From positions 1 through 64,000 of the forward strand of contig CAITNS010000016.1 of NCBI GenBank assembly GCA_903893815.1: a stretch of DNA of 64,000 nt, read 5' to 3'. Shown here in pieces: positions 1-28,959 of this stretch. Numbering within the stretch: position 1 is the first letter of the stretch; each line of letters begins with the position of its first letter. The notes under the pieces are model-generated. The model made no database searches. It was not told where the DNA came from and saw only the letters and a program-made list of their open reading frames with translations. The position numbers and the translations under genes are program-made. Source of the stretch: an uncultured Bacteroidota bacterium (GTDB lineage: Bacteria; Bacteroidota; Bacteroidia; B-17B0; Aurantibacillaceae).

Positions 1-49
1 ACATTTGAGCATTAATACGCAAAAAATGGAATTTAGGTGCGGTTATGCC
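1..49 (-). repeat. attC-like site of cassette 11, truncated by window edge
   Basis: This is the right-hand end of another array element. It has the arm ATGGAATTTAGGTGCGG followed by the core GTTATGCCT at 42-50. The core matches, inverted, the AGGCATAAC core at 209-217 that opens cassette 11. The rest of the element lies outside the window, so the array continues leftward. Confidence 0.7.
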
Positions 50-209: not shown

Positions 210-385
210 GGCATAACGGTTGCAAGCTAAATTCCCGTTTGGGTTTTGAAACATTGTCTACCGAAATATTACTAACAAAGCTAAATGTTTATTGGACTTT
301 TGCAAAGCGAAAATTAATTAATTGTCTACCGCTTTTGCAAAAGCCGAAGCCGAATGCCCAAATGGGATTTAGGTTGGGTTATGCG
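210..385 (-). repeat. attC-like site of cassette 10
   Basis: This is an imperfect palindrome about 170 bp long. The ends read GGCATAAC (210-217) and GTTATGCG (378-385). The outer arms pair roughly CTAAATTCCCGTTTGGG with CCCAAATGGGATTTAG. An inner pair of about 10-12 bp is built on TTTTGCAAA/TTTGCAAAA around 299-341. The short motif TTGTCTACCG or a near variant appears twice as a direct repeat. The same layout recurs in attC-like sites 2, 3, 4 and 9. The GTTATGCGT end matches the start of cassette 10. Confidence 0.8.
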
Positions 386-1520: not shown

Positions 1521-1698
1521 TACGCATAACGGTTGCAAGCTAAATTCCCGTTTGGAGTTTGAAACTTTGTCTACCGAAATGTTTGTTTAAAGATAAATGT
1601 TTAATGGACTTTTGCAAAGCGAAAATTAATTAATTGTCTACTGCTTTTGCAAAAGGCGAAGCCGAATGCCCAAATGGGATTTAGGTTGTGTTAGCAGT
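1521..1698 (-). repeat. attC-like site of cassette 9
   Basis: The ends are TACGCATAAC (1521-1530) and GTTAGCAGT (1690-1698). The outer arms, the inner TTTTGCAAA arms (about 1611-1652) and the doubled TTGTCTAC motif match those of the site at 210-385. Its right end matches the start of cassette 9 (ACTGCTAAC, 2158-2166), not its own left end, as the cassette model predicts. Confidence 0.8.
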
Positions 1699-2157: not shown

Positions 2158-2342
2158 ACTGCTAACGGATTCGCGGTTTATTTCTGTTTGGGATTTGAAA
2201 CCGTTTCTACCGAAATATTACTGACAAAGCTATAATATTATTAGCCATTTGCAAAGCATGAATAAACTTCTTTCGCGGGAGCGACTGCTTTTGCAAATGC
2301 CGAAGCCGAATGCCCAAATAGAATAAACCGAGTGTTAGCTGC
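2158..2342 (-). repeat. attC-like site of cassette 8
   Basis: The ends are ACTGCTAAC (2158-2166) and GTTAGCTGC (2334-2342). This is a second sequence subtype shared with the site at 23469-23654. Its outer arms are CGCGGTTTATTCTGTTTGGG-like against CCCAAATAGAATAAACCG. The inner arms are ATTTGCAAAGCA against TGCTTTTGCAAAT, with a TTCGCGGGAGCGA segment between them. The right core matches the start of cassette 8 (GCAGCTAAC, 2883-2891). Confidence 0.8.
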
Positions 2343-2882: not shown

Positions 2883-3019
2883 GCAGCTAACGGTTTCGGG
2901 CTTGGCGAAGGTGGCGATTTTCACCACAAATGTTAATGCGGAGAACCAAACTTTGATTAACCACAAATGTGTCTGCGGAGCACTGAACCGCCACTTTTGC
3001 CAAACCCGTGTTATATGCT
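2883..3019 (-). repeat. attC-like site of cassette 7, divergent short subtype
   Basis: This 137-bp element shares almost no internal sequence with the others but keeps the same plan. It has TAACGG...GTGTTA ends, a long stem in which CGGGCTTGGC and GTGGCG pair with CGCCAC and GCCAAACCCG, and an AT-richer centre. The cores are GCAGCTAAC (2883-2891) and GTTATATGC (3010-3018). The latter matches the start of cassette 7 at 5156-5164. Conservation of structure with loss of sequence is typical of attC sites. Confidence 0.75.
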
Positions 3020-5155: not shown

Positions 5156-5335
5156 GCATATAACGTTTTGGAGCTAAAAGAAGTGCGGCATTGAAACCGT
5201 TTCTAACCGAAAAGCTTTTTTAAAGATACTATGTTTGTGGACATTTGCAAAGAAAAATAAATGTCTTTCGCGAAGCGACCTTATTTGCAAATGCTTATAC
5301 TAATGCTAGCATTTTTTTTAGGTACTGTTATGTGA
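5156..5335 (-). repeat. attC-like site of cassette 6
   Basis: The ends are GCATATAAC (5156-5164) and GTTATGTGA (5327-5335). It is a third sequence subtype shared with the site at 5987-6166, opening ACGTTTTGGAGCTA. The inner arms are ATTTGCAAA (about 5243) and TTTGCAAAT (about 5283), around CTTTCGCGAAGCGAC. The right core matches the start of cassette 6 (CACATAAC, 5987-5994). Confidence 0.8.
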
Positions 5336-5986: not shown

Positions 5987-6166
5987 CACATAACGTTTTG
6001 GAGCTACCAGTAGTGCGGTTTGTAACCGTTGTCTACCGAAATGCTACTAACAAAGATACTATGTTCATGGACTTTTGCAAAGCGAAAATAATTGTCTTTC
6101 GCGGAGCGACCGCTTTTGCAAAAGCTTTGTTGTCCGCCCGCATTACTGGTAGGTGCTGTTACCTGA
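5987..6166 (-). repeat. attC-like site of cassette 5
   Basis: The ends are CACATAAC (5987-5994) and GTTACCTGA (6158-6166). Arms: GGAGCTACCAGTAGTGCGG pairs with CCGCATTACTGGTAGG, a strong stem. The inner arms are ACTTTTGCAAAGCG and CGCTTTTGCAAAAG. The right core GTTACCTG matches the start of cassette 5 at 9549-9557, and complementarity resumes further out (CCAGCC/GGCTGG). Confidence 0.85.
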
Positions 6167-6372
6167 TGCCAGCCACATTTTTTGAGAAACGTACCAATAG
6201 AACACAATGTATATTATTAAGTACTAATATGTCTGACAGAAACCGAATGCCACCTATTAGCAATTTGGAAAATTGCCAGAGCGTAAGCAAAGTTTACAAG
6301 CTTTTTTGCAAAATTAGGATTGCAGGGCTGATTTGTGCGTTTTGCAAATGGGCTTGGAAACTTAGGGGAGCA
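6167..6372. repeat. Cassette 3'-tail repeat, copy 1 (family B)
   Basis: This stretch is closely similar to 9725-9925. Shared blocks include GCCAGCC followed by a TGAGAAA segment, AATATGTCT, CAATTTGGAAAATTGCC, TTTACAAGCTTTTTTGCAAAAT and GATTGCAGGGCTGATTT. Both copies lie immediately next to an attC-like site, at the 3' ends of cassettes 5 and 4. No convincing gene is present in either copy. It may be an extended cassette end or the remnant of an older attC-like element (TTTGCAAAA arms are visible). Confidence 0.65.
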
Positions 6373-6739: not shown

Positions 6740-6746
6740 ATTGCAG

Positions 6747-6956
6747 TCGCTAAAAATTAAAACGCAGGTTAAAGATATTAAAAATCCTATTCAAATACTT
6801 AAAATGCAGGAGAAAAAAGTTAAAATGCAGTAAGTAGTTCTTAAAACGCATATTAAAGAACTTAAAATGCATAATCAAAAAGTTAAAACGCCATATAAAA
6901 AAATTAAAACTCCTATTAAAAAAGTTAAAACACCTATTGAAGTACTTAAAAATAGA
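6747..6956. repeat. Ten tandem 21-bp degenerate repeats upstream of the XRE gene
   Basis: Ten consecutive 21-bp units are visible, each with an invariant TTAAAA near the middle, often followed by TGCA, CGCA or CTCCT (for example ATTAAAGAACTTAAAATGCAT). The tract sits directly upstream of the XRE gene start. In the plus strand the units read as seven-residue repeats such as KKIKTPI KKVKTPI, with one in-frame stop after unit 4 and no good start codon. It may be an iteron-like DNA-binding array of two helical turns per unit, or a decayed heptad-coding gene. The remaining 6957-7020 shows nothing further. Confidence 0.7.
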
Positions 6957-9277: not shown

Positions 9278-9548
9278 ACGCCTGTGGCGCACCTTTTGGT
9301 GCGTCAAGCACACGTGCAAAAAAAAGTGCTGAAAGCACACCTTATTGTGTGGGTGGGATAATTTAGCTTATTTGGTTTTTGCCTGCCTTTTCGCAAAAAC
9401 AAATGTGCTAAATTATTGGGATAGCAAAAACGGTTTTTTCAAGCCGATAAAACAGTTTGGTTTCACACACAGGTCTAGCGAGTTTAGTGAGGTCTAAATG
9501 AAGTTTTGTGTCTTACGATGAAGTTTGATTTTTCTGTCGGCTGGTTGC
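9278..9548. repeat. Cassette 5'-leader repeat, copy 1 (family C), with a long hairpin
   Basis: The leader of cassette 5 repeats at 17885-18171 in cassette 4. Shared blocks include ACGCCTGTGGC, GCTGAAAGCACACCTTATT, TTTTTGCCTGCCTTTTCGC, CACACACAGGTCTA, TTTAGTGAGGTCTAAATG and TTTTGTGTCTTACG. Within it, about 9357-9422 folds into a near-perfect hairpin. Its arms are TAATTTAGC...GCTAAATTA and GGTTTTTGC...GCAAAAAC. No reading frame of note is present. It may be a cassette-borne promoter or leader, or an old attC-like unit. Confidence 0.7.
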
Positions 9549-9724
9549 AGGTAACGGTTGCAAGCTAAATTCCCGTTTGGGTTTTGAAACTTTGTCTACC
9601 GAAATATTACTAACAAAGCTAAATGTTTATTGGACTTTTGCAAAGCGAAAATTAACTAATTGTCTACCGCTTTTGCAAAAGCCGAAGCCGAATGCCCAAA
9701 TGGGATTTAGGTTGTGTTATAAGT
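9549..9724 (-). repeat. attC-like site of cassette 4
   Basis: The ends are GCAGGTAAC (9549-9557) and GTTATAAGT (9716-9724). The body is almost identical to the site at 210-385, with the same arms and the doubled TTGTCTACCG motif. The right core matches the start of cassette 4 at 18172-18180, although that start is 8.5 kb away. Beyond the core the two flanks pair again (CCAGCC/GGCTGG). Confidence 0.85.
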
Positions 9725-9925
9725 TGCCAGCCGCATTTAGTGAGAAAAGTACCAATGAAACTAAATGTTTTTTAACCTCAAATATGTCTAACCGAAGCCG
9801 AATACCACCTGTTGCAATTTGGAAAATTGCCGGTGCATGGGATAGGTTTACAAGCTTTTTTGCAAAATTTGGATTGCAGGGCTGATTTATGCGTTTTGCA
9901 AATGGGCTTGGAAACCTGATGAGAT
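9725..9925. repeat. Cassette 3'-tail repeat, copy 2 (family B)
   Basis: This is the second copy of the tail described at 6167-6372, here at the 3' end of cassette 4. Conserved blocks are in the same order and orientation relative to the attC-like site. The two cassettes therefore share both ends (families B and C) around different genes. From 9926 to 10024 I see nothing further. Confidence 0.65.
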
Positions 9926-17884: not shown

Positions 17885-18171
17885 ACGCCTGTGGCTAAAG
17901 CGCTTTGACTGAACGGACGTGAGATGCGCAAAACCTCGCTGAAAGCACACCTTATTTTGTGTGTGGGGATAATTTAGCTTATTTGGTTTTTGCCTGCCTT
18001 TTCGCAAAAACAAATGGGCTAAATTATGTGGGATAGCAAAAGCGGCTTTTTCAGCTGCATTGTTCTAATAAAACTGTTTCTATTTTCACACACAGGTCTA
18101 CCGAGTTTAGTGAGGTCTAAATGAGAAGTTTTGTGTCTTACGTTAAAGTTTGATTTTTCAGTCGGCTGGTT
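17885..18171. repeat. Cassette 5'-leader repeat, copy 2 (family C)
   Basis: This second copy of the leader at 9278-9548 sits at the start of cassette 4. The hairpin TAATTTAGC...GCTAAATTA with the inner GTTTTTGC/GCAAAAAC is conserved (about 17970-18028), as are the CACACACAGGTCTA and TTTAGTGAGGTCTAAATG blocks. It begins 5 bp after the stop of the preceding plus-strand gene. No gene is seen between 17881 and 18431. Confidence 0.7.
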
Positions 18172-18349
18172 ACTTATAACGGTTTCAAGCTAAATTCCCG
18201 TTTGGATTTTGAAACTTTGTCTACCGAAATGTTAGTTTAAAGATAAATGTTTAATAGACTTTTGCAAAGCGAAAATTAAATAATTGTCTACCGCTTTTGC
18301 AAAAGCCGAAGCTGAATGCCCAAATGGGATTTAGGTTGTGTTAGGCGTA
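18172..18349 (-). repeat. attC-like site of cassette 3
   Basis: The ends are ACTTATAAC (18172-18180) and GTTAGGCGTA (18340-18349). The body nearly matches the site at 20599-20776, including the AGTTTAAAGATAAATG variant centre shared with the 1521 site. The right core matches the start of cassette 3 (TACGCCTAAC, 20599-20608) over 10 bp. Confidence 0.85.
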
Positions 18350-20598: not shown

Positions 20599-20776
20599 TA
20601 CGCCTAACGGTTTCAAGCTAAATTCCCGTTTGGAGTTTGAAACTTTGTCTACCGAAATGTTAGTTTAAAGATAAATGTTTAATAGACTTTTGCAAAGCGA
20701 AAATTAACTAATTGTCTACCGCTTTTGCAAAAGCCGAAGCCGAATGCCCAAATGGGATTTAGGTTGTGTTACCGGC
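20599..20776 (-). repeat. attC-like site of cassette 2
   Basis: The ends are TACGCCTAAC (20599-20608) and GTTACCGGC (20768-20776). The body nearly matches the sites at 18172 and 1521. The right core matches the start of cassette 2 (GCCGGTAAC, 23469-23477) over 9 bp. TACGCCTAAC/GTTAGGC fits the classical GTTRRRY core best of all the sites here. Confidence 0.85.
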
Positions 20777-20799: not shown

Positions 20800-23448
20800 T
20801 CAATGCTTAACTACTTTGATTGTTTTATACTGATTATTTGCACTCACTTTGAGTAAATAAATACCATTCGTTAGGTTACTAATATCTATTTGCTTTTTGG
20901 TATCTCCAGTAGTTAGAATTAATTTTTCGCTTTGAACCAATGAGCCAGATAAATTATATATTTCAATTTTACTTTCAGTGTTTAATAAAATTTCAACATC
21001 TACAGTTGTAATACCTGTTGTTGGATTAGGATAAACAATTAAGCCAGCTTCTTGAGTATTCTCAGAAATTCCAACAAAACAATTTACGGAATTGTCGTAA
21101 ATAAAAGTTGATGAATAAAGTCTTGGGTGTCCGCCAGTAATTGTAGTAAGGGAATCTCCTGTGTATCGGTGCATTTGAATAGCAGTGCTGTCCCAAAGTT
21201 CGAACTGGTCTGTTCCGCAACCATAAAACCTTAATTCCATTGTGCTGTCGGCATATTCAAAATCATTAACGCCTGGAACATTTTTAACCAAAGTTTCAAT
21301 ATGATTTTGATTGTATAAGGGTAAAATAGTTCCTTCTTTAATAAAAATTGGAAGACGATCTAGTGGTGCACTAACCGATAAAGTTGTCGGTCCGGTAGCT
21401 GCAATTGTTCCTGTCCAGAAGTCATACCATGTTCCTGCGGGAAAATATACATTTCTAGTAACTGCTCCCGAGTCTAAAACGGGCGCAACCATTACACGGT
21501 CGCCTAACAGAAATTGGTCTTTTATTTGAATTGTATTTACATCATTCGGGTAATGCAAATACAATGATCGTGCAACAGGAATACCTGTTTCCTTTGCTTC
21601 TTTAACCAATGTGTAGATGTAAGGGAAAAATTTCACATGTAGTTTTGCATATTTTTTAAACATGGCTTTCGTTTGTGGTGATTGGTCAAATACTTGTTTG
21701 GCACCCAAATAAAGTTCATCCCCCTCGTGTGTCCATAATACCGGAATTAAGGCAACCATTTCCAACCACCTTATCCAAAGTTCTTCTAAATTGCTTGGCA
21801 ATACAACGGGCGCACCATATTTATATCCTCCTACATGTGGACATACGAGAGGGTGTCCGGAAATACCGCCTGATAAAATATTTGAAATTTGACCTTTAAT
21901 GCCGTTGGCGGTTTCCCAACTCATATCAGGGTCGTTAATCATAACAGGTGCATACTTCTGCATCCCTGTCCATCCTCCACGCATAAAATAAACATAATCT
22001 CCGTTGGGTTGGTTTTGCTCCCAAAATTCTTGATTTGTTTTTGCCCAGTTAAGCGGGTATTCATTGTGAACTGCATACGGATTTGAATTGGCTGAATCAA
22101 TCATATCTATTCGGTGGTGTTCGCCAAAATCAGCCATCCACCCGCTGCTGCCAACACTTAGTGCATTTGTCATTAAATTATTCTTATACCAGTTTCTCAC
22201 TGTCTGTCGACTAAGGTCTGGTTCTGCTACCTGATTAAACCAAACTAACCATTGATTGAGATATGTTGTGCTTAACCAATTTTTCATAAAATAACCTTGC
22301 GTATTTGCGTAATTATATTCTGCATCGTTATTGAAGATATAAGGCCAGTAATAATGTAATACTTTGAAACCTTGATTGTGATGAGTGTTAACCAAAGTAT
22401 TGTAATTAGGCCAATATGCAGGGTCTATCTGCCATGACATTCCTGCTCCGAGAATGTTCAATATTTTTTTTGACCAGTAGTGATGCCACAAGGCACTACA
22501 AGGTATGCTATCGTTACGCAACAATGAAGCAACTTGATTAGAGCGGTCGGATTCGGTTTGAAGACCATTTCTGTTTTTTGTTAACATCCAAACGCCAAAG
22601 ACCCAAGGTTCAGGGGTTCTTAGCAGGCGACCTGCATCTTCTGTATAATTCTGTATAATGTCAATTGGTGTTGCTCCTAAATAAACTGTAAAGTTCAAGT
22701 GTTGTTCCCAAGTGGCTATTTCGTTAATGTTTGGATCAGTTTCTCCTAAGTCAAATGAGCTGCAAGTGTTTTCATTTAATAATAAACCATAGCCACGAGT
22801 TGAAATATAAAATGGCACTCTGGCTTCCCCTTGATTTTCTGGTTTAGGAGAAGGTTCATTTGCAATTCTCATCTCACTTATCCAGTTTAACATTTTCTTA
22901 TTTCTAAACGCCACATCTTCAGGGCGTGTTCCGAACCCAAGAAAATATTCATTCGGAAAAAGTTTTAATCTTAATCGGGTTCTGTATTTCCAAGGCTGAG
23001 CAACTGGTGTGGCCTTTTGAATTTCTACTTTCACTTTATTGTTTAAAAGAAGTTGAACATGCATATTGATCACTTCTGCATTCGAAGTGTTTTGAAAAGA
23101 AGCATCAATAATATATAGCGGGTCATTCGAACTCCAGGTCAACAAGGTATTTGTCCACCATTGGTAGGCAGCAGTGCTATCCTTTACTACTGAATACATG
23201 TAACTTGCATAATCTACTGTTGAGTTTGGATAACTTGCAAATCCAATAGGTAAGTCGGCCGTTGGTGAAGAGGTCTCAATAATAAATGCGCCTGTGCTTA
23301 GATCTTTTATTTTAAAGCCATTGTCGTAGAGGTTGAATTCTACATTTCCTCGGCTTAATTGTTTGAGCAAGGTTTGCCCGAAAATGTTAGAGAAGCTTAA
23401 TAGTGAAATACTTAAAGCTAAAGTCAATTGTAAAATTATTTTTCTCAT
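20800..23448 (-). CDS. Glycoside hydrolase family 31 enzyme with T9SS sorting domain (cassette 2)
   Basis: The 882-residue product has a signal peptide (about 1-25, FSNIFGQ), an N-terminal beta-sandwich (about 30-250) and a GH31 (beta/alpha)8 barrel (about 260-650). GWMADFGEH (about residues 440-448) holds the expected catalytic nucleophile Asp. A conserved MINDPDMSWE segment (about 510-519) is the likely acid/base region, followed by SGGISGHPLVCPHVGGY. A C-terminal beta domain and a T9SS type-A sorting tail (LIVYPNPTTGITTVD, NGIYLLKVS) complete it. GH31 enzymes are alpha-glucosidases, alpha-xylosidases or sulfoquinovosidases. The WMADFGE motif is closest, from memory, to the YihQ-like group, but specificity is not certain. 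It is probably surface-exposed and is the sole gene of cassette 2. Confidence 0.9.
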   Translation of the reverse strand: MRKIILQLTLALSISLLSFSNIFGQTLLKQLSRGNVEFNLYDNGFKIKDLSTGAFIIETSSPTADLPIGFASYPNSTVDYASYMYSVVKDSTAAYQWWTNTLLTWSSNDPLYIIDASFQNTSNAEVINMHVQLLLNNKVKVEIQKATPVAQPWKYRTRLRLKLFPNEYFLGFGTRPEDVAFRNKKMLNWISEMRIANEPSPKPENQGEARVPFYISTRGYGLLLNENTCSSFDLGETDPNINEIATWEQHLNFTVYLGATPIDIIQNYTEDAGRLLRTPEPWVFGVWMLTKNRNGLQTESDRSNQVASLLRNDSIPCSALWHHYWSKKILNILGAGMSWQIDPAYWPNYNTLVNTHHNQGFKVLHYYWPYIFNNDAEYNYANTQGYFMKNWLSTTYLNQWLVWFNQVAEPDLSRQTVRNWYKNNLMTNALSVGSSGWMADFGEHHRIDMIDSANSNPYAVHNEYPLNWAKTNQEFWEQNQPNGDYVYFMRGGWTGMQKYAPVMINDPDMSWETANGIKGQISNILSGGISGHPLVCPHVGGYKYGAPVVLPSNLEELWIRWLEMVALIPVLWTHEGDELYLGAKQVFDQSPQTKAMFKKYAKLHVKFFPYIYTLVKEAKETGIPVARSLYLHYPNDVNTIQIKDQFLLGDRVMVAPVLDSGAVTRNVYFPAGTWYDFWTGTIAATGPTTLSVSAPLDRLPIFIKEGTILPLYNQNHIETLVKNVPGVNDFEYADSTMELRFYGCGTDQFELWDSTAIQMHRYTGDSLTTITGGHPRLYSSTFIYDNSVNCFVGISENTQEAGLIVYPNPTTGITTVDVEILLNTESKIEIYNLSGSLVQSEKLILTTGDTKKQIDISNLTNGIYLLKVSANNQYKTIKVVKH

Positions 23449-23468: not shown

Positions 23469-23654
23469 GCCGGTAACGTTTTCGCGGTTTATTTCTGTTT
23501 GGGGATTTGAAACCGTTTCTACCGAAATATTACTAACAAAGCTATAATTTTATTTGACATTTGCAAAGCATAAATAATTTTCCTTCGCGGGAGCGACTGC
23601 TTTTGCAAATGCCGAAGCCGAATGCCCAAATAGAATAAACCGTGTGTTAGGGGC
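23469..23654 (-). repeat. attC-like site of cassette 1
   Basis: The ends are GCCGGTAAC (23469-23477) and GTTAGGGGC (23646-23654). It belongs to the same subtype as the site at 2158-2342 (GCGGTTTATTTCTGTTTGG arms). The right core matches, inverted, the GCCCCTAAC at 25593-25601 that opens cassette 1. Confidence 0.85.
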
Positions 23655-23706: not shown

Positions 23707-25530
23707 TTAATATAATACAAATGTTTCAGTGACAATATTATTACCTGCATTCAAAAATTGAATTGTAAATGTACTCGGTGAAATAGCTATAATTGATCTA
23801 TGTACATTTCCAAATAATATTAAATCATTTTTGACAGTACCAAATATCCATGTATCAATAGTGTTATAAGTGCTACAGCTACTACCGCTAACTTGCAATG
23901 TTCCGTTTAAAGAAAAAGTATGTTTTGTGTTAATATCACACACGTCAACTGATATTGGATTACCTGATAAAGTTACGCTAGAAACTTTCCAATCCTTTAA
24001 TGAATTGTTTGTTAACATTGCTAATGTATCTGCGCCAACTGAAGTATAAAAACTAATGGGAGTATTTAATATATTGCTACCATCAGCTTTTTTTGCAACT
24101 ACTTGCACTTCTTGAGCACCAGATGTTCCAAGTGTCCAATTTGTTTCAGCAAAACCATTTGCATCAGACAATACTGTGGTAGTGGTAATAGAGCCTCCAC
24201 CGTTAGCTACCGAAAAATAAACAGGAACATTTGATTGTGAACTACCTTTACTATCTTCAACTTTAATTTTTAAAGCGTTTGCTAGTTGTTGACCAAAAGT
24301 TCCTGATTGATTATTACCAGAAACAATAGAAATTTGATAAGGTGTGGTATAAGATAATTTTGTTGTTTCCCAACTATTACTGTAATTAGCTAATGTATAA
24401 CCAAGAACATCTATACTAGCACCTGCTGTAGCCTTAACCCAAACATCTGTTTTAAAATCCCAATCTAATTGAGGCGATGCAATATTGCCAGTTAATTGCT
24501 CTTGTAAACCAACAGATGCATATGGACCAGCAACACCATATAATTTAACACTAACATGCGGTGTTAAGCCAATGTTTACAGTCATGTTTGCATTCCCTGA
24601 AGGTTGTGGATTTAAAGAAAATGTATTTGTCGGATTGAAATTATTTATACCAGTCCATTGAGAGTTGCTGTATTTTACACCAAGATTAAAAGTATTATTA
24701 CTAGTGTATGTTCCTGACTTTGAAATAGCCGCACCAATGGTAGCTGAATAATTTACAATTAAATCAACGTCTATAATAACTTCAATTGGTACAACTACAG
24801 GTACGCCTAATAAAACAGCAGGCACCCATTTGGTATATGATTTTGTTAAATGAGTCAAGGTATCATTTCTGTCAAATAATGTAATAGCTTGACTAGCGGT
24901 AACCGACATATTAAAGTTGCCATTTAATGTGCCATTTTGTGCGCTCATTTCAAACTTTGTAATTCCAGTACTATTGAATCCAAAATCAAAAAACCAATTA
25001 GGATTTAAATCTATCTGACCACTGTTTATAATAATACTTAATGGGCCATTTTGATAAATAGTTTTATTGTTTATTGGATATGAAAAGCCTGTAGAAGCAC
25101 TTTTCTGATGCATATTGTCCATATCTAAATTAAAATTCAGCCCACCGTTTTTAAAAACATCTTCCATCCGAGCTTGGGTTGTTTGCAAACTAATATTACC
25201 TGAGTTTAATGTTACTGCCGTTACTTTTCTCAGATAACCTACACCTGCTGAGCCAACTATAATATCGCCAATTGTTATAGTTGGTGTAGCGCCTGTATAT
25301 GAAAATTGATATATGCCATTCCCAATTAATGTAGGACTTTGATTAAGAGTATACGTTGTTGTGTCAATTATTTTGACATTTTCCCATAAATCAGGAGGTG
25401 GGACTGGTTGAGATGGTGTAGTAGGATCCTCAGGTGTAATTTCATTTTTGTCTTTTTTACAGCTGAAAATAGCTAATAAAATTATAGGAATGATGAAACT
25501 CCATTTTCTGAAAATAGTCTTTGATTTCAT
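23707..25530 (-). CDS. Lipoprotein with Ig-like (Big_1) domain (cassette 1)
   Basis: The product is about 607 residues when started at the ATG at 25530; the frame extends to a TTG at 25551. It begins with a lipoprotein signal (LLAIFSCKKDK, lipobox Cys near residue 22) and an acidic/proline linker (EDPTTPSQPVPPPD). The middle (about 60-400) is beta-rich with many Asn/Gly/Thr. A Big_1-type Ig domain at about 410-495 contains KVEDSKGSSQSNVPVYFSV and LSDANGFAETNWTLG. A C-terminal beta domain follows. It is probably anchored in the outer membrane. I do not recognise the middle domain. It is the first cassette gene next to the candidate attI, where a cassette would be newly inserted and best expressed in classical integrons. 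Confidence 0.75.
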   Translation of the reverse strand: MKSKTIFRKWSFIIPIILLAIFSCKKDKNEITPEDPTTPSQPVPPPDLWENVKIIDTTTYTLNQSPTLIGNGIYQFSYTGATPTITIGDIIVGSAGVGYLRKVTAVTLNSGNISLQTTQARMEDVFKNGGLNFNLDMDNMHQKSASTGFSYPINNKTIYQNGPLSIIINSGQIDLNPNWFFDFGFNSTGITKFEMSAQNGTLNGNFNMSVTASQAITLFDRNDTLTHLTKSYTKWVPAVLLGVPVVVPIEVIIDVDLIVNYSATIGAAISKSGTYTSNNTFNLGVKYSNSQWTGINNFNPTNTFSLNPQPSGNANMTVNIGLTPHVSVKLYGVAGPYASVGLQEQLTGNIASPQLDWDFKTDVWVKATAGASIDVLGYTLANYSNSWETTKLSYTTPYQISIVSGNNQSGTFGQQLANALKIKVEDSKGSSQSNVPVYFSVANGGGSITTTTVLSDANGFAETNWTLGTSGAQEVQVVAKKADGSNILNTPISFYTSVGADTLAMLTNNSLKDWKVSSVTLSGNPISVDVCDINTKHTFSLNGTLQVSGSSCSTYNTIDTWIFGTVKNDLILFGNVHRSIIAISPSTFTIQFLNAGNNIVTETFVLY

Positions 25531-25592
25531 TGCATTAAATTTTAACTTCAAATATAAATAATTTTCTGTTTGTTGAGTTTTTTTCTAAACTT

Positions 25593-25674
25593 GCCCCTAA
25601 CACCTGTGTATACGCAACTAGTTGCGTATTACTCGGCTTTTTGAGATATAAACGAAACAAGTTGCGTTTATATC
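25593..25674 (-). other. Candidate attI: first cassette boundary with two strong palindromes
   Basis: GCCCCTAAC (25593-25601) is the 5' boundary of cassette 1, complementary to the core at 23646-23654. Beside it, away from the cassette, lie a perfect 20-bp palindrome (25610-25629, half-site ATACGCAACT) and a 30-bp inverted repeat with 10-bp arms GATATAAACG/CGTTTATATC (25645-25674). Both carry AGTTGCGT. No attC-like arms are present. A site with integrase-binding repeats but no attC fold, next to a recombinase gene, is what attI should look like. Its use as attI is inference. The remaining 25675-25791 shows no gene. Confidence 0.55.
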
Positions 25675-25791
25675 CAGATTAGTCGAAGGTGATTGCGAGG
25701 TTGGTATTTCGTTAAAAAAAATGTTAGTTATAATTTTATTCCTGCTCATTACTTCTTTCTATCTGTTTTGCAATGTAAATTTAACATAAAA

Positions 25792-27408
25792 TTAAAATAT
25801 ATCCAATTTATCTAACGGACTCGTTATTTGATCAAATCCTTTGGTTGTGATATGGGTGTATATTTCAGTCGTTTTACTACTCTCATGCCCTAATAAACTC
25901 TGAATGTATCTTAAATCTGTGCCATTTTCCAGCAAATGTGTTGCAAAACTATGTCTTAAAGTATGAACACTAATCTTTTTCTTTATCCCTGCCTTAAAAG
26001 TTGCATCTCGCATAATTGCTTGAATACTTCGTGTAGAGTATTGCCCACCTGTCTGACCCTCAAACAGCCAAATTTCCGGTTGGTATTTCTTAAAATAATC
26101 TCTTAATATTATTAGGAGTTTTGGTGATAAAATTGAGTATCTATCTTTTTTTCCTTTGCCCTGTGCAATGTGAATTTGCATCCTTTCACTATCAATATCT
26201 TTAAGTTTGAGGTTAATCAATTCACTCAATCGTAATCCAGCAGAATAGCATGTCATCAATATGGCTTTATGTTTTAAATTTTCAGCTGCTTTTAATATAT
26301 CCGAAATCTCAGTCTCGTTCAAAACTATTGGAAGAGTTTTTTCTTCTCTTGGCCGTTCAATTAAATACACTTTTCTGCCTCCTCCTAAAACACGCTCATA
26401 GTAAAATTTTATAGCGTTAATTGCCTGGTTTTGATAGGAAGATGAAATTTTTCGGTCAATTACTAAGTATCTCAAATAATCAACAATCATTGGTTCTGTA
26501 ATACTTTCAATATCATGATCAGAATAATAATTAATAAACTCCGTAAAAGTATTAACATATACAGCTAGTGTATGTGCGCTATATCGCAGCTCTTTTAGCT
26601 TAAGGATAAATTCTTCTGGACAAGTTCTATAATTACTAATATCAGATCGAGTTAATCTAGGAGCTTTTTCTGATTCTCCTTTTTCAATCTCTAATGTTAT
26701 GTCTAAATTTTGAAATTTGGCAATGGTTTGTATTTCTAACAAAAATCTTTCAGTATAAGGAATACTCCATGATTTGTTCCTTGGATTCCATTTTGAATAT
26801 GGAATTGCCCTAGCTGCCCTAGTAAGTGTATTATTGAAATTAAAAAATAATTTTAATCGGCCAGAAATTGTTTTTATAATAAGTAATTGATTTGGCTCAA
26901 CGCTCCTTCTAACATCATATGATGCAAAGATTTCAGAATCAGAATATACTTCAATGTTTGGATTTCTATCCTTGAAATAATTCTTCAGTAAGATTAAATT
27001 AGCGCCATAATTTGGAACCGTCCAATAATACTGTTTCTTATCCCAGCGGCTGTATTTAAATCCCAAAATAAAACGAGTATCCTGCTCGTTACGAGGCAAC
27101 TTTACAGAGATGTTGCGGCCATGCACAATTATAAATACATCCGAAATAATCTGATTAATATTAATGGACTCACTATTTGCTGATGACTTTGTAACAGTTG
27201 CTTTGCCTTCATAATCAAGTTCAATAAATTTCTCTTTGAGAAGTTCAAAGGTTTGTTTATCATATGGAACATGCCATGCATTATGAATTTTACTCCATTT
27301 GGAGTCTGGAATTTTTTTTATAGCTGCAACAGATTCATAATTAAATTTGAAATCAACTTTTATTCGCGGCTCATTATTATAAAAAATTTTACTTGCTTTC
27401 ATGATCAT
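25792..27408 (-). CDS. Tyrosine recombinase with HARP-like N-terminal repeats; candidate cassette integrase
   Basis: The 538-residue product has three N-terminal repeats of about 75 residues with a K-x-W-x-(V/I)-P core: KIHNAWHVPYDKQ, KKQYYWTVPNY and RNKSWSIPYTE. A SAM-like core-binding domain follows (about 255-345), then a tyrosine-recombinase catalytic domain. Catalytic residues are Arg393 (GLRLSEL), Lys418 (GKGKKDR), His482/Arg485 (HTLRHSFATH), His508 (LLGHESS) and Tyr517 (EIYTH), so it looks active. It ends ITSPLDKLDIF, similar to the SPLD tail of IntI proteins. I do not see the extra segment that IntI has before HTLR. It is transcribed toward the array, its stop about 190 bp from the first cassette boundary, as in inverse integrons. 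Movement of these cassettes is inference. An ATG two codons downstream is equally possible. Confidence 0.85.
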   Translation of the reverse strand: MIMKASKIFYNNEPRIKVDFKFNYESVAAIKKIPDSKWSKIHNAWHVPYDKQTFELLKEKFIELDYEGKATVTKSSANSESININQIISDVFIIVHGRNISVKLPRNEQDTRFILGFKYSRWDKKQYYWTVPNYGANLILLKNYFKDRNPNIEVYSDSEIFASYDVRRSVEPNQLLIIKTISGRLKLFFNFNNTLTRAARAIPYSKWNPRNKSWSIPYTERFLLEIQTIAKFQNLDITLEIEKGESEKAPRLTRSDISNYRTCPEEFILKLKELRYSAHTLAVYVNTFTEFINYYSDHDIESITEPMIVDYLRYLVIDRKISSSYQNQAINAIKFYYERVLGGGRKVYLIERPREEKTLPIVLNETEISDILKAAENLKHKAILMTCYSAGLRLSELINLKLKDIDSERMQIHIAQGKGKKDRYSILSPKLLIILRDYFKKYQPEIWLFEGQTGGQYSTRSIQAIMRDATFKAGIKKKISVHTLRHSFATHLLENGTDLRYIQSLLGHESSKTTEIYTHITTKGFDQITSPLDKLDIF

Positions 27409-27960: not shown

Positions 27961-28959
27961 ATGCGAAAAAAAACCGAAACTAGAGTAGAATTTGCTTGTA
28001 GACATATTAATGGATTTTTTGAGGTCACCACAAAAATGGAGCAGTACATTTTAATTAGCGGCCTTTCAAAAGCAACATATGAATCATACTGCCGAAAACT
28101 TGCTGAACTGTCTTTATATTTCAACAAACTGCCACAACATATTTCCGAAATAGAATTAACAGAATACTTGGCTTTTTTAGTAACTAAAGCTAAAAGCCCA
28201 TCGCAAACAGAATTTAAACACATGGTATACGGAATGCGTTTTTACTTTAAAGCGCTAAACTTAAAGCTGAAAGTAAGGCTTCCAATTATTAAAGACGATA
28301 AAAAATTACCAATTGTTTTAAGTAAACAAGAGTGTTTTTCCATCATTAATCAGACTAAAAATTTTAAGCATCGCTTAATACTTATGTTTATTTATTCGGG
28401 AGGATTAAGAGTGAGAGAGCTCACCAATTTAAAATGGAGTGATGTTAATGTAAATCGCATGACTATTCATATAAAAAGATCTAAAGGAAGAAAAGACCGC
28501 TACGTTCCTTTAGCTAAAAACATCATTGAGCCTTTTGTTCAATATATGGGTGGGTTGCATAAAAGTGAATACATATTTTTTGGCGCTGATAACAGAGAAA
28601 AAATGAGTCACACGGGAATTATGTTTTTGCTTAAACAAGCTGTTAGAAGAGTGGGAATTAATAAAACAGGAGTTTGTTTACATACGTTGCGTCATAGTTA
28701 TGCTACCCATTTATTAGAAGACGGATTAGACATTATTTCTATTAAAGAATTGTTGGGGCATGAAAGTATTCAAACTACTTTAGTTTATTTGCACGTTGCA
28801 AATTGTAATAGGCAACAAAAAATGTCGCCACTTGACAGCTTATATGATGAAGTCGCAACTGAATTAATTAATAAATGCAAAATAAAATACACTGAATTAT
28901 CTATTCAACGCAATTCTAGAATAAAAGTTCAAGATAACCAACTTGATTTGTTTTATTAG
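27961..28959 (+). CDS. Tyrosine recombinase, XerC/IntI-related, 332 residues
   Basis: The N-terminal SAM-like core-binding domain spans about residues 25-115 and the catalytic domain about 120-290. Catalytic residues visible are Arg150 (GGLRVREL), Lys175 (SKGRKDR), His241/Arg244 (HTLRHSYATH), His267 (LLGHESI) and Tyr276 (TLVYLHV). After the tyrosine come KMSPLDSL and a further 40-residue charged tail not usual in XerC. The size fits XerC/D and IntI, but the IntI-specific extra segment before HTLR is not evident. It points away from the cassette array, the orientation of classical integron integrases, but lies 2.4 kb from the first cassette. It could be the cassette integrase, a chromosome-dimer-type recombinase, or a partner of the neighbouring one. 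Confidence 0.85.
   Translation: MRKKTETRVEFACRHINGFFEVTTKMEQYILISGLSKATYESYCRKLAELSLYFNKLPQHISEIELTEYLAFLVTKAKSPSQTEFKHMVYGMRFYFKALNLKLKVRLPIIKDDKKLPIVLSKQECFSIINQTKNFKHRLILMFIYSGGLRVRELTNLKWSDVNVNRMTIHIKRSKGRKDRYVPLAKNIIEPFVQYMGGLHKSEYIFFGADNREKMSHTGIMFLLKQAVRRVGINKTGVCLHTLRHSYATHLLEDGLDIISIKELLGHESIQTTLVYLHVANCNRQQKMSPLDSLYDEVATELINKCKIKYTELSIQRNSRIKVQDNQLDLFY

Follow-up and report, generated by a model that had tools for sequence, protein, structure and literature searches.

A candidate cassette integrase without the IntI-specific insert, beside integron-like arrays in Bacteroidota

The integrases of integrons (IntI) carry a specific insert of about 41 residues. Recombination of single-stranded DNA by IntI has been ascribed to the gain of the I2 helix (PMC7790495), and the extra domain is called necessary by Messier and Roy 2001, as cited in PMC9668308. 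The insert is not kept by all members of a broad integron-like subgroup (PMC8138268). The inverse integrons of Spirochaetota have a reverse-oriented IntI (PMC9668308). For Bacteroidetes proper, a survey from 2022 reported a single complete integron, that of Salinibacter ruber (PMC9024848). In the open-access literature we found no description of HARP combined with an integron integrase, or of integron-like arrays in Bacteroidota. Here we investigate a recombinase gene and the repeats that adjoin it in a window of 64,000 nucleotides, the whole stretch of DNA analysed, from an uncultured Bacteroidota bacterium [GenBank: GCA_903893815.1, contig CAITNS010000016.1, positions 1 to 64,000].

The gene of the tyrosine recombinase P0001 (538 aa; 25792..27408), a proposed cassette integrase on the basis of Pfam, residue alignment and family association, is an intact open reading frame on the minus strand of the window. 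P0001 has a SAM-like core-binding domain (residues 266–342, 26383..26613, minus strand; Pfam PF13495, E 3.8e-14) and a catalytic domain (residues 363–521, 25846..26322, minus strand; PF00589, E 1.6e-41). An earlier note, made from the letters of the sequence, had described a complete tyrosine recombinase with the catalytic residues R393, K418, H482, R485, H508 and Y517; all of these are present in P0001 and are invariant across 48 aligned relatives. The SPLD tail that it named is also there, the protein ending in SPLDKLDIF. About 190 bp lie between the end of the gene and the first cassette boundary (TAAC at 25598), and the gene points to the array; this agrees with the placement given in that note and with its comparison to inverse integrons. 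We infer that P0001 is probably active on the cassettes as a recombinase.

With IntI (VchIntIA/IntI4, 2a3v; IntI1) P0001 shares its catalytic residues, SAM-like core domain and SPLD-like tail, as well as an adjoining attI and a cassette array in one orientation. It differs in its extra N-terminal repeats and in having no insert. The distance between the KGxKDR and HxLRH motifs is 58–59 residues in nearly all members of the P0001 family (range 57–65), as against exactly 100 in all seven true IntI of the fetched loci, so the IntI-specific segment is missing. In this respect P0001 resembles XerA and other Xer proteins (5hxy, NF040815). It scores 216.5 bits against the XerA model NF040815, for which the cut-off is 220, and falls far below the cut-offs of the XerC and XerD models. 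Unlike members of the P0001 family, Xer-type genes have no sites within 5 kb.

Is P0001 then an ordinary IntI minus the insert, already covered by the described integron-like subgroup of recombinases? It matches NCBIfam TIGR02249 at 209 bits, and the solved structure nearest to it is VchIntIA in complex with its hairpin (2a3v). This match is below the cut-off of 265, however, and IntI form their own 100/100 clade, apart from the P0001 family, which has N-terminal repeats of its own and sites with different ends. We consider this explanation quite unlikely; P0001 is not a canonical IntI, as had been proposed. P0001 itself belongs to a starred clade made up of seven long proteins. In the careful tree the whole family is not significantly one clade and the deeper branching order is weak. 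The family may have arisen independently of IntI, or may have branched off before the insert was gained. The literature view that IntI needs its extra segment does count against the reading of P0001 as an integrase, P0001 having none. Among 17 genomes, only G043:C26 passes the TIGR02249 cut-off. This is a true IntI (L156:4401-5435) with 443 bits to TIGR02249 and a TGA inside the matched stretch, and its genome (G043) also has three loci of the P0001 family.

The first ~260 residues of P0001 have no Pfam match. On the strength of a structure model and of motifs, residues 1–250 (26659..27408, minus strand) were divided into three repeats that are HARP-like at low confidence. In the AlphaFold model (mean pLDDT 84) each repeat has the order strand-strand-helix-strand-strand-helix-strand. 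The motifs KWSKIHNAWHVP (residues 37–48), RWDKKQYYWTVP (121–132) and KWNPRNKSWSIP (206–217) have in common the pattern [KR]W[SDN]x5W-x-[VI]-P. The three K-x-W-x-V/I-P repeats of the earlier note are therefore present as repeats, with the literal K-x-W exact in the third only. Its likening of this region to HARP is not established by the matches found, which are weak: PF07443 is matched weakly in 4 of 23 family members (best E 0.0016), and in P0001 there is no match to it up to E 1. The N-terminus shares its tryptophan/proline pattern with the HARP domain of SMARCAL1 (4o66, PF07443), and both the profile and the fold similarity are weak. A HARP profile matches the region at E 0.62. The Foldseek search with the N-terminal model gave 4o66 the top probability in its list (0.77; E 0.19, rank 11) and had no PDB match at E <= 0.001. 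The HARP identity of this region is only suggestive. Most members of the family have one repeat, and one that adjoins an array (L157) has none. Three repeats are therefore not required, since single-repeat and repeatless members adjoin sites as well. That the repeats help to hold the folded attC-like site, as the earlier note's idea of binding to folded single-stranded attC DNA would have it, is attractive but speculative. Some members have very long N-termini (L088, L090 and L093; ORFs of 676–720 aa); the extension in L090 resembles a degenerate second recombinase domain ahead of the active one, and L093 has at least five sites downstream.

P0001 faces an array of 11 attC-like boundaries that reaches from the contig start to 23.6 kb. 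The repeated elements run from TAAC to GTTA, are 126–176 nt long and lie between the genes of the window. They were located by a palindrome scan (TAAC/GTTA with complementary arms) and also by a covariance model. Neither the window's other half nor a shuffled sequence gave any site in the scan, and an Rfam search of the window gave no match. All are on the minus strand, and the first ten rest on the scan, their termini and the covariance model. Site 1 (23474..23649, 176 nt) ends the first cassette (gene 23707-25551), site 2 (20605..20771) belongs to a cassette with a GH31 gene (20800-23448), site 3 (18177..18343) to one with SnoaL and HxlR genes, and site 4 (9552..9719) to one of 8.4 kb. Next come site 5 (5991..6161), site 6 (5161..5330), site 7 (2888..3013, 126 nt; cassette with DUF7192 and AAA genes), site 8 (2163..2337), site 9 (1527..1693) and site 10 (214..381; cassette with a propeller gene, 441-1451). 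Site 11 (1..45), called by its terminus match, is cut by the contig start and has its GTTA end alone. Outside the sites, near-identical short segments are found between cassettes (9355-9416 and 17966-18027; 6260-6361 and 9814-9915), and at 6742-6951 there are repeat units of ~21 nt around TTAAAAYGC.

Within each of the 11 window cassettes, the nucleotides that follow GTTA are complementary, over 4–6 contiguous nt, to those that precede TAAC. Mismatched pairs of cassette ends reach 3 nt in 1.8% of cases, and none of 20000 permutations equalled the observed score. This pairing is the R''/R' relation of integron cassettes, a property of the cassette and not of the site. In other arrays the cassette ends are matched in 43 of 51 pairs, compared with 5% off-diagonal, and GTTG goes with CAAC and GTTC with GAAC.

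Because weaker sites, visible by eye in contig tails, escaped the first palindrome threshold (score 26), we built the covariance model R1 from 25 sites, with 17 pairs. All 17 stem pairs have compensatory changes, and there are 149 double-change cells versus 46 in shuffles; these stem statistics are inflated by the preselection of the training sites for complementarity, which leaves the tests of termini, strand and association unaffected. The bottom strand folds better in 36 of 47 non-redundant sites (p 3e-4). In most of the 47 the stem's first pair lies 9 nt from the 5' end and 5 from the 3' end, and the unpaired ends are uneven, with 5 nt on one side and 1 nt on the other. Across the family the sites are ~48–186 nt long. 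Canonical attC sites carry extrahelical bases on one arm and an unpaired central spacer that is roughly even, features that the sites here lack. For a canonical attC we take the aadA7 type, in which the first pair is at 10 and 9 and two extrahelical bases are on the 3' arm; the set for comparison comprised this one canonical attC and two sites of an IntI locus. The 47 sites have no common pattern of extrahelical bases and mostly 1x1 mismatches. Conserved extrahelical bases on the opposite arm were considered as well, and were dropped after counting (5 sites versus 9, mostly 1x1 mismatches).

The putative attI (25598..25700, minus strand) ends at GTTA (25598-25601). It contains the palindrome ATACGCAACTAGTTGCGTAT (25610-25629) and a second inverted repeat (25645-25674). 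Orthologues of P0001 are found in G070, G071 and G083, at 91%, 78% and 56% protein identity. Over the ~200 bp past the recombinase gene the window resembles G070 and G071, and in the core also G083; this core, common to the four species, has the palindrome TACGCAA..TTGCGTA near GTTA. In all four the likeness stops at GTTA, and a different cassette comes next in each. A conserved attI junction with differing first cassettes is the trace expected of insertion at attI, as read from these sequences.

Further signs of exchange are seen in other genomes, and the cassettes common to genomes or arrays break exactly at GTT. G020 and G021 have one cassette with its site in common at 96–99%; the identity stops at TAAC/GTTA on both sides, and this cassette is first at attI in G020 and ~24 kb into the array in G021. 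In G043 a 3.3 kb cassette (88.6%) lies behind different attC sites in two arrays, and a comparison of two further contigs gives 92% identity in the integrase with a step up to 99.9% over one cassette. Two window cassettes, when searched for, had no full-length copy in 86 genomes of the same taxonomic family, and recent movement of the window array therefore lacks support. P0001 may once have been functional, with the present copy or array now a relic; the lack of a close match for these two cassettes and the presence of some long cassettes in the window array are consistent with this. The intact frame, the full set of catalytic residues and the 91% identity to the G070 orthologue speak against it, as does the change of first cassette between attI sites that are almost the same, and we think a relic unlikely.

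Relatives of P0001 form a broad set in the 87 genomes of the same taxonomic family that were searched, most of them ~380 aa long with one repeat. Many lie near contig ends, as expected if repeats follow the gene. The earlier note had let its proposal depend on whether homologues sit beside such arrays, and the survey came out in favour of P0001. In 16 near-complete genomes a site is present within 5 kb of 9 of 18 family recombinases and of none of 78 other PF00589 proteins. Among the nine family members without a listed site, three (G016, G048, G005) had sites in other locus scans and others end at contig breaks; no site was detected near G079:C1, G084:C17 and G003:1338573. In a separate set, drawn from named genomes, a same-strand downstream site (E <= 0.01) was found at 22 of 41 family loci versus none of the 39 loci of non-family recombinases. 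With 2.5 kb or more of sequence available downstream, 15 of 17 family loci carry a same-strand array, versus 0 of the 39 controls (p ~1e-8; p 1e-7 without the 4 of 41 named-genome loci that supplied training sites to R1). The two exceptions are L091, from a clade of divergent orientation, and L089, with a site ~9 kb upstream on the other strand. Loci with a downstream array include named strains of Algoriphagus, Flavobacterium, Algibacter, Winogradskyella, Seonamhaeicola and Rufibacter. Two family members, in a Spirochaetota bin (L086) and a Firmicutes bin (L082), had no convincing sites on their short flanks. We take the P0001 family to be a large and apparently undescribed group of Bacteroidota that is located beside cassette arrays.

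The integrase gene of the Spirochaetota inverse integrons, like that of P0001, reads toward the cassettes. These elements have IntI as described, whereas P0001 belongs to a different recombinase lineage, one sub-clade of which has the usual divergent orientation. On G021:C2, G050:C12 and G043:C19 (L141, L157) the gene and the array are divergent, as is usual for integrons. Within each orientation type the strand polarity of the sites relative to the recombinase is constant. Several genomes, for example G003 and G053, have CALIN-like clusters of attC-like sites, remote from family recombinases; judging from the contig ends, the array on G053:C1 may continue that on C2 across a contig break. Such clusters, like the family members near which no site was detected, count against the integrase reading. 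Could the sites be repeated palindromes, such as REP- or MITE-like elements or terminators, arranged as they are by coincidence? Bacterial genomes commonly have palindromic repeats between genes, and many of the site clusters are away from any recombinase. Such repeats would not account for termini matched per cassette rather than per site, for identity of common cassettes that stops at GTT, or for the constant strand polarity, and we hold this to be highly improbable.

A second tyrosine recombinase, P0002 (332 aa; 27961..28959, plus strand), is divergent to P0001, and its relatives form a separate 100/100 clade. It might be thought that the enzyme at work on the sites is P0002, or the host XerC/XerD, with P0001 a mere neighbour: P0002 is a complete recombinase, it is kept beside the P0001 orthologue in G070, and host Xer proteins are always at hand. 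In G071 and G083 (L037, L038), however, this attI locus has no P0002, so P0002 is not needed, and it was judged unlikely to be the true integrase and outside the minimal system. The P0002-like relatives L138 and L154 have no site in 20 kb, and the 78 non-family recombinases again argue against another enzyme. We rate action by another recombinase as very unlikely. One P0002-like locus, L170 (G025:C30), unlike the others, has several attC-like sites, in reverse orientation on the opposite strand, so chance or secondary association does occur.

The window has the features of an integron platform, a cassette array with matched R''/R' ends and an attI beside the integrase gene. The sequences show intact catalytic residues, the array with its matched termini, covariation in the stems, exchange of cassettes at attI junctions and an association with this family alone, and they sustain the earlier proposal of P0001 as the integrase of an inverse-oriented integron-like array. 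With high confidence, on sequence grounds, we propose for P0001 the role of cassette integrase in an integron-like platform that occurs across Bacteroidota, acting on attI and on attC-like hairpins at GTT. P0001 would act on the adjacent attI (25598-25700) and on the imperfect hairpin that ends each cassette, exchanging DNA at the GTT triplet. Cassettes would enter beside attI and pile up downstream in one orientation. By analogy with IntI the substrate is probably the folded single bottom strand, and the order of these steps is likewise inferred. Polarity may be set by the unequal lengths of the unpaired ends (5 and 1 nt) and not by the usual extrahelical bases.

It is somewhat more probable than the contrary that integron integrases have a second lineage in this family, one that is widespread in Bacteroidota and recombines folded single-strand sites without an I2 helix, with another site geometry and often with HARP-like repeats. 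Against the one Bacteroidetes integron of the 2022 survey (PMC9024848), the P0001 family has a downstream array at 22 of 41 scanned loci. Tools that rely on IntI-specific features are expected to miss this family, and draft assemblies tend to break just past its gene. If P0001 is active, the I2 segment would be dispensable for cassette recombination, which bears on the origin of integrons (PMC7790495), and a large, little-examined route of gene exchange would be revealed.
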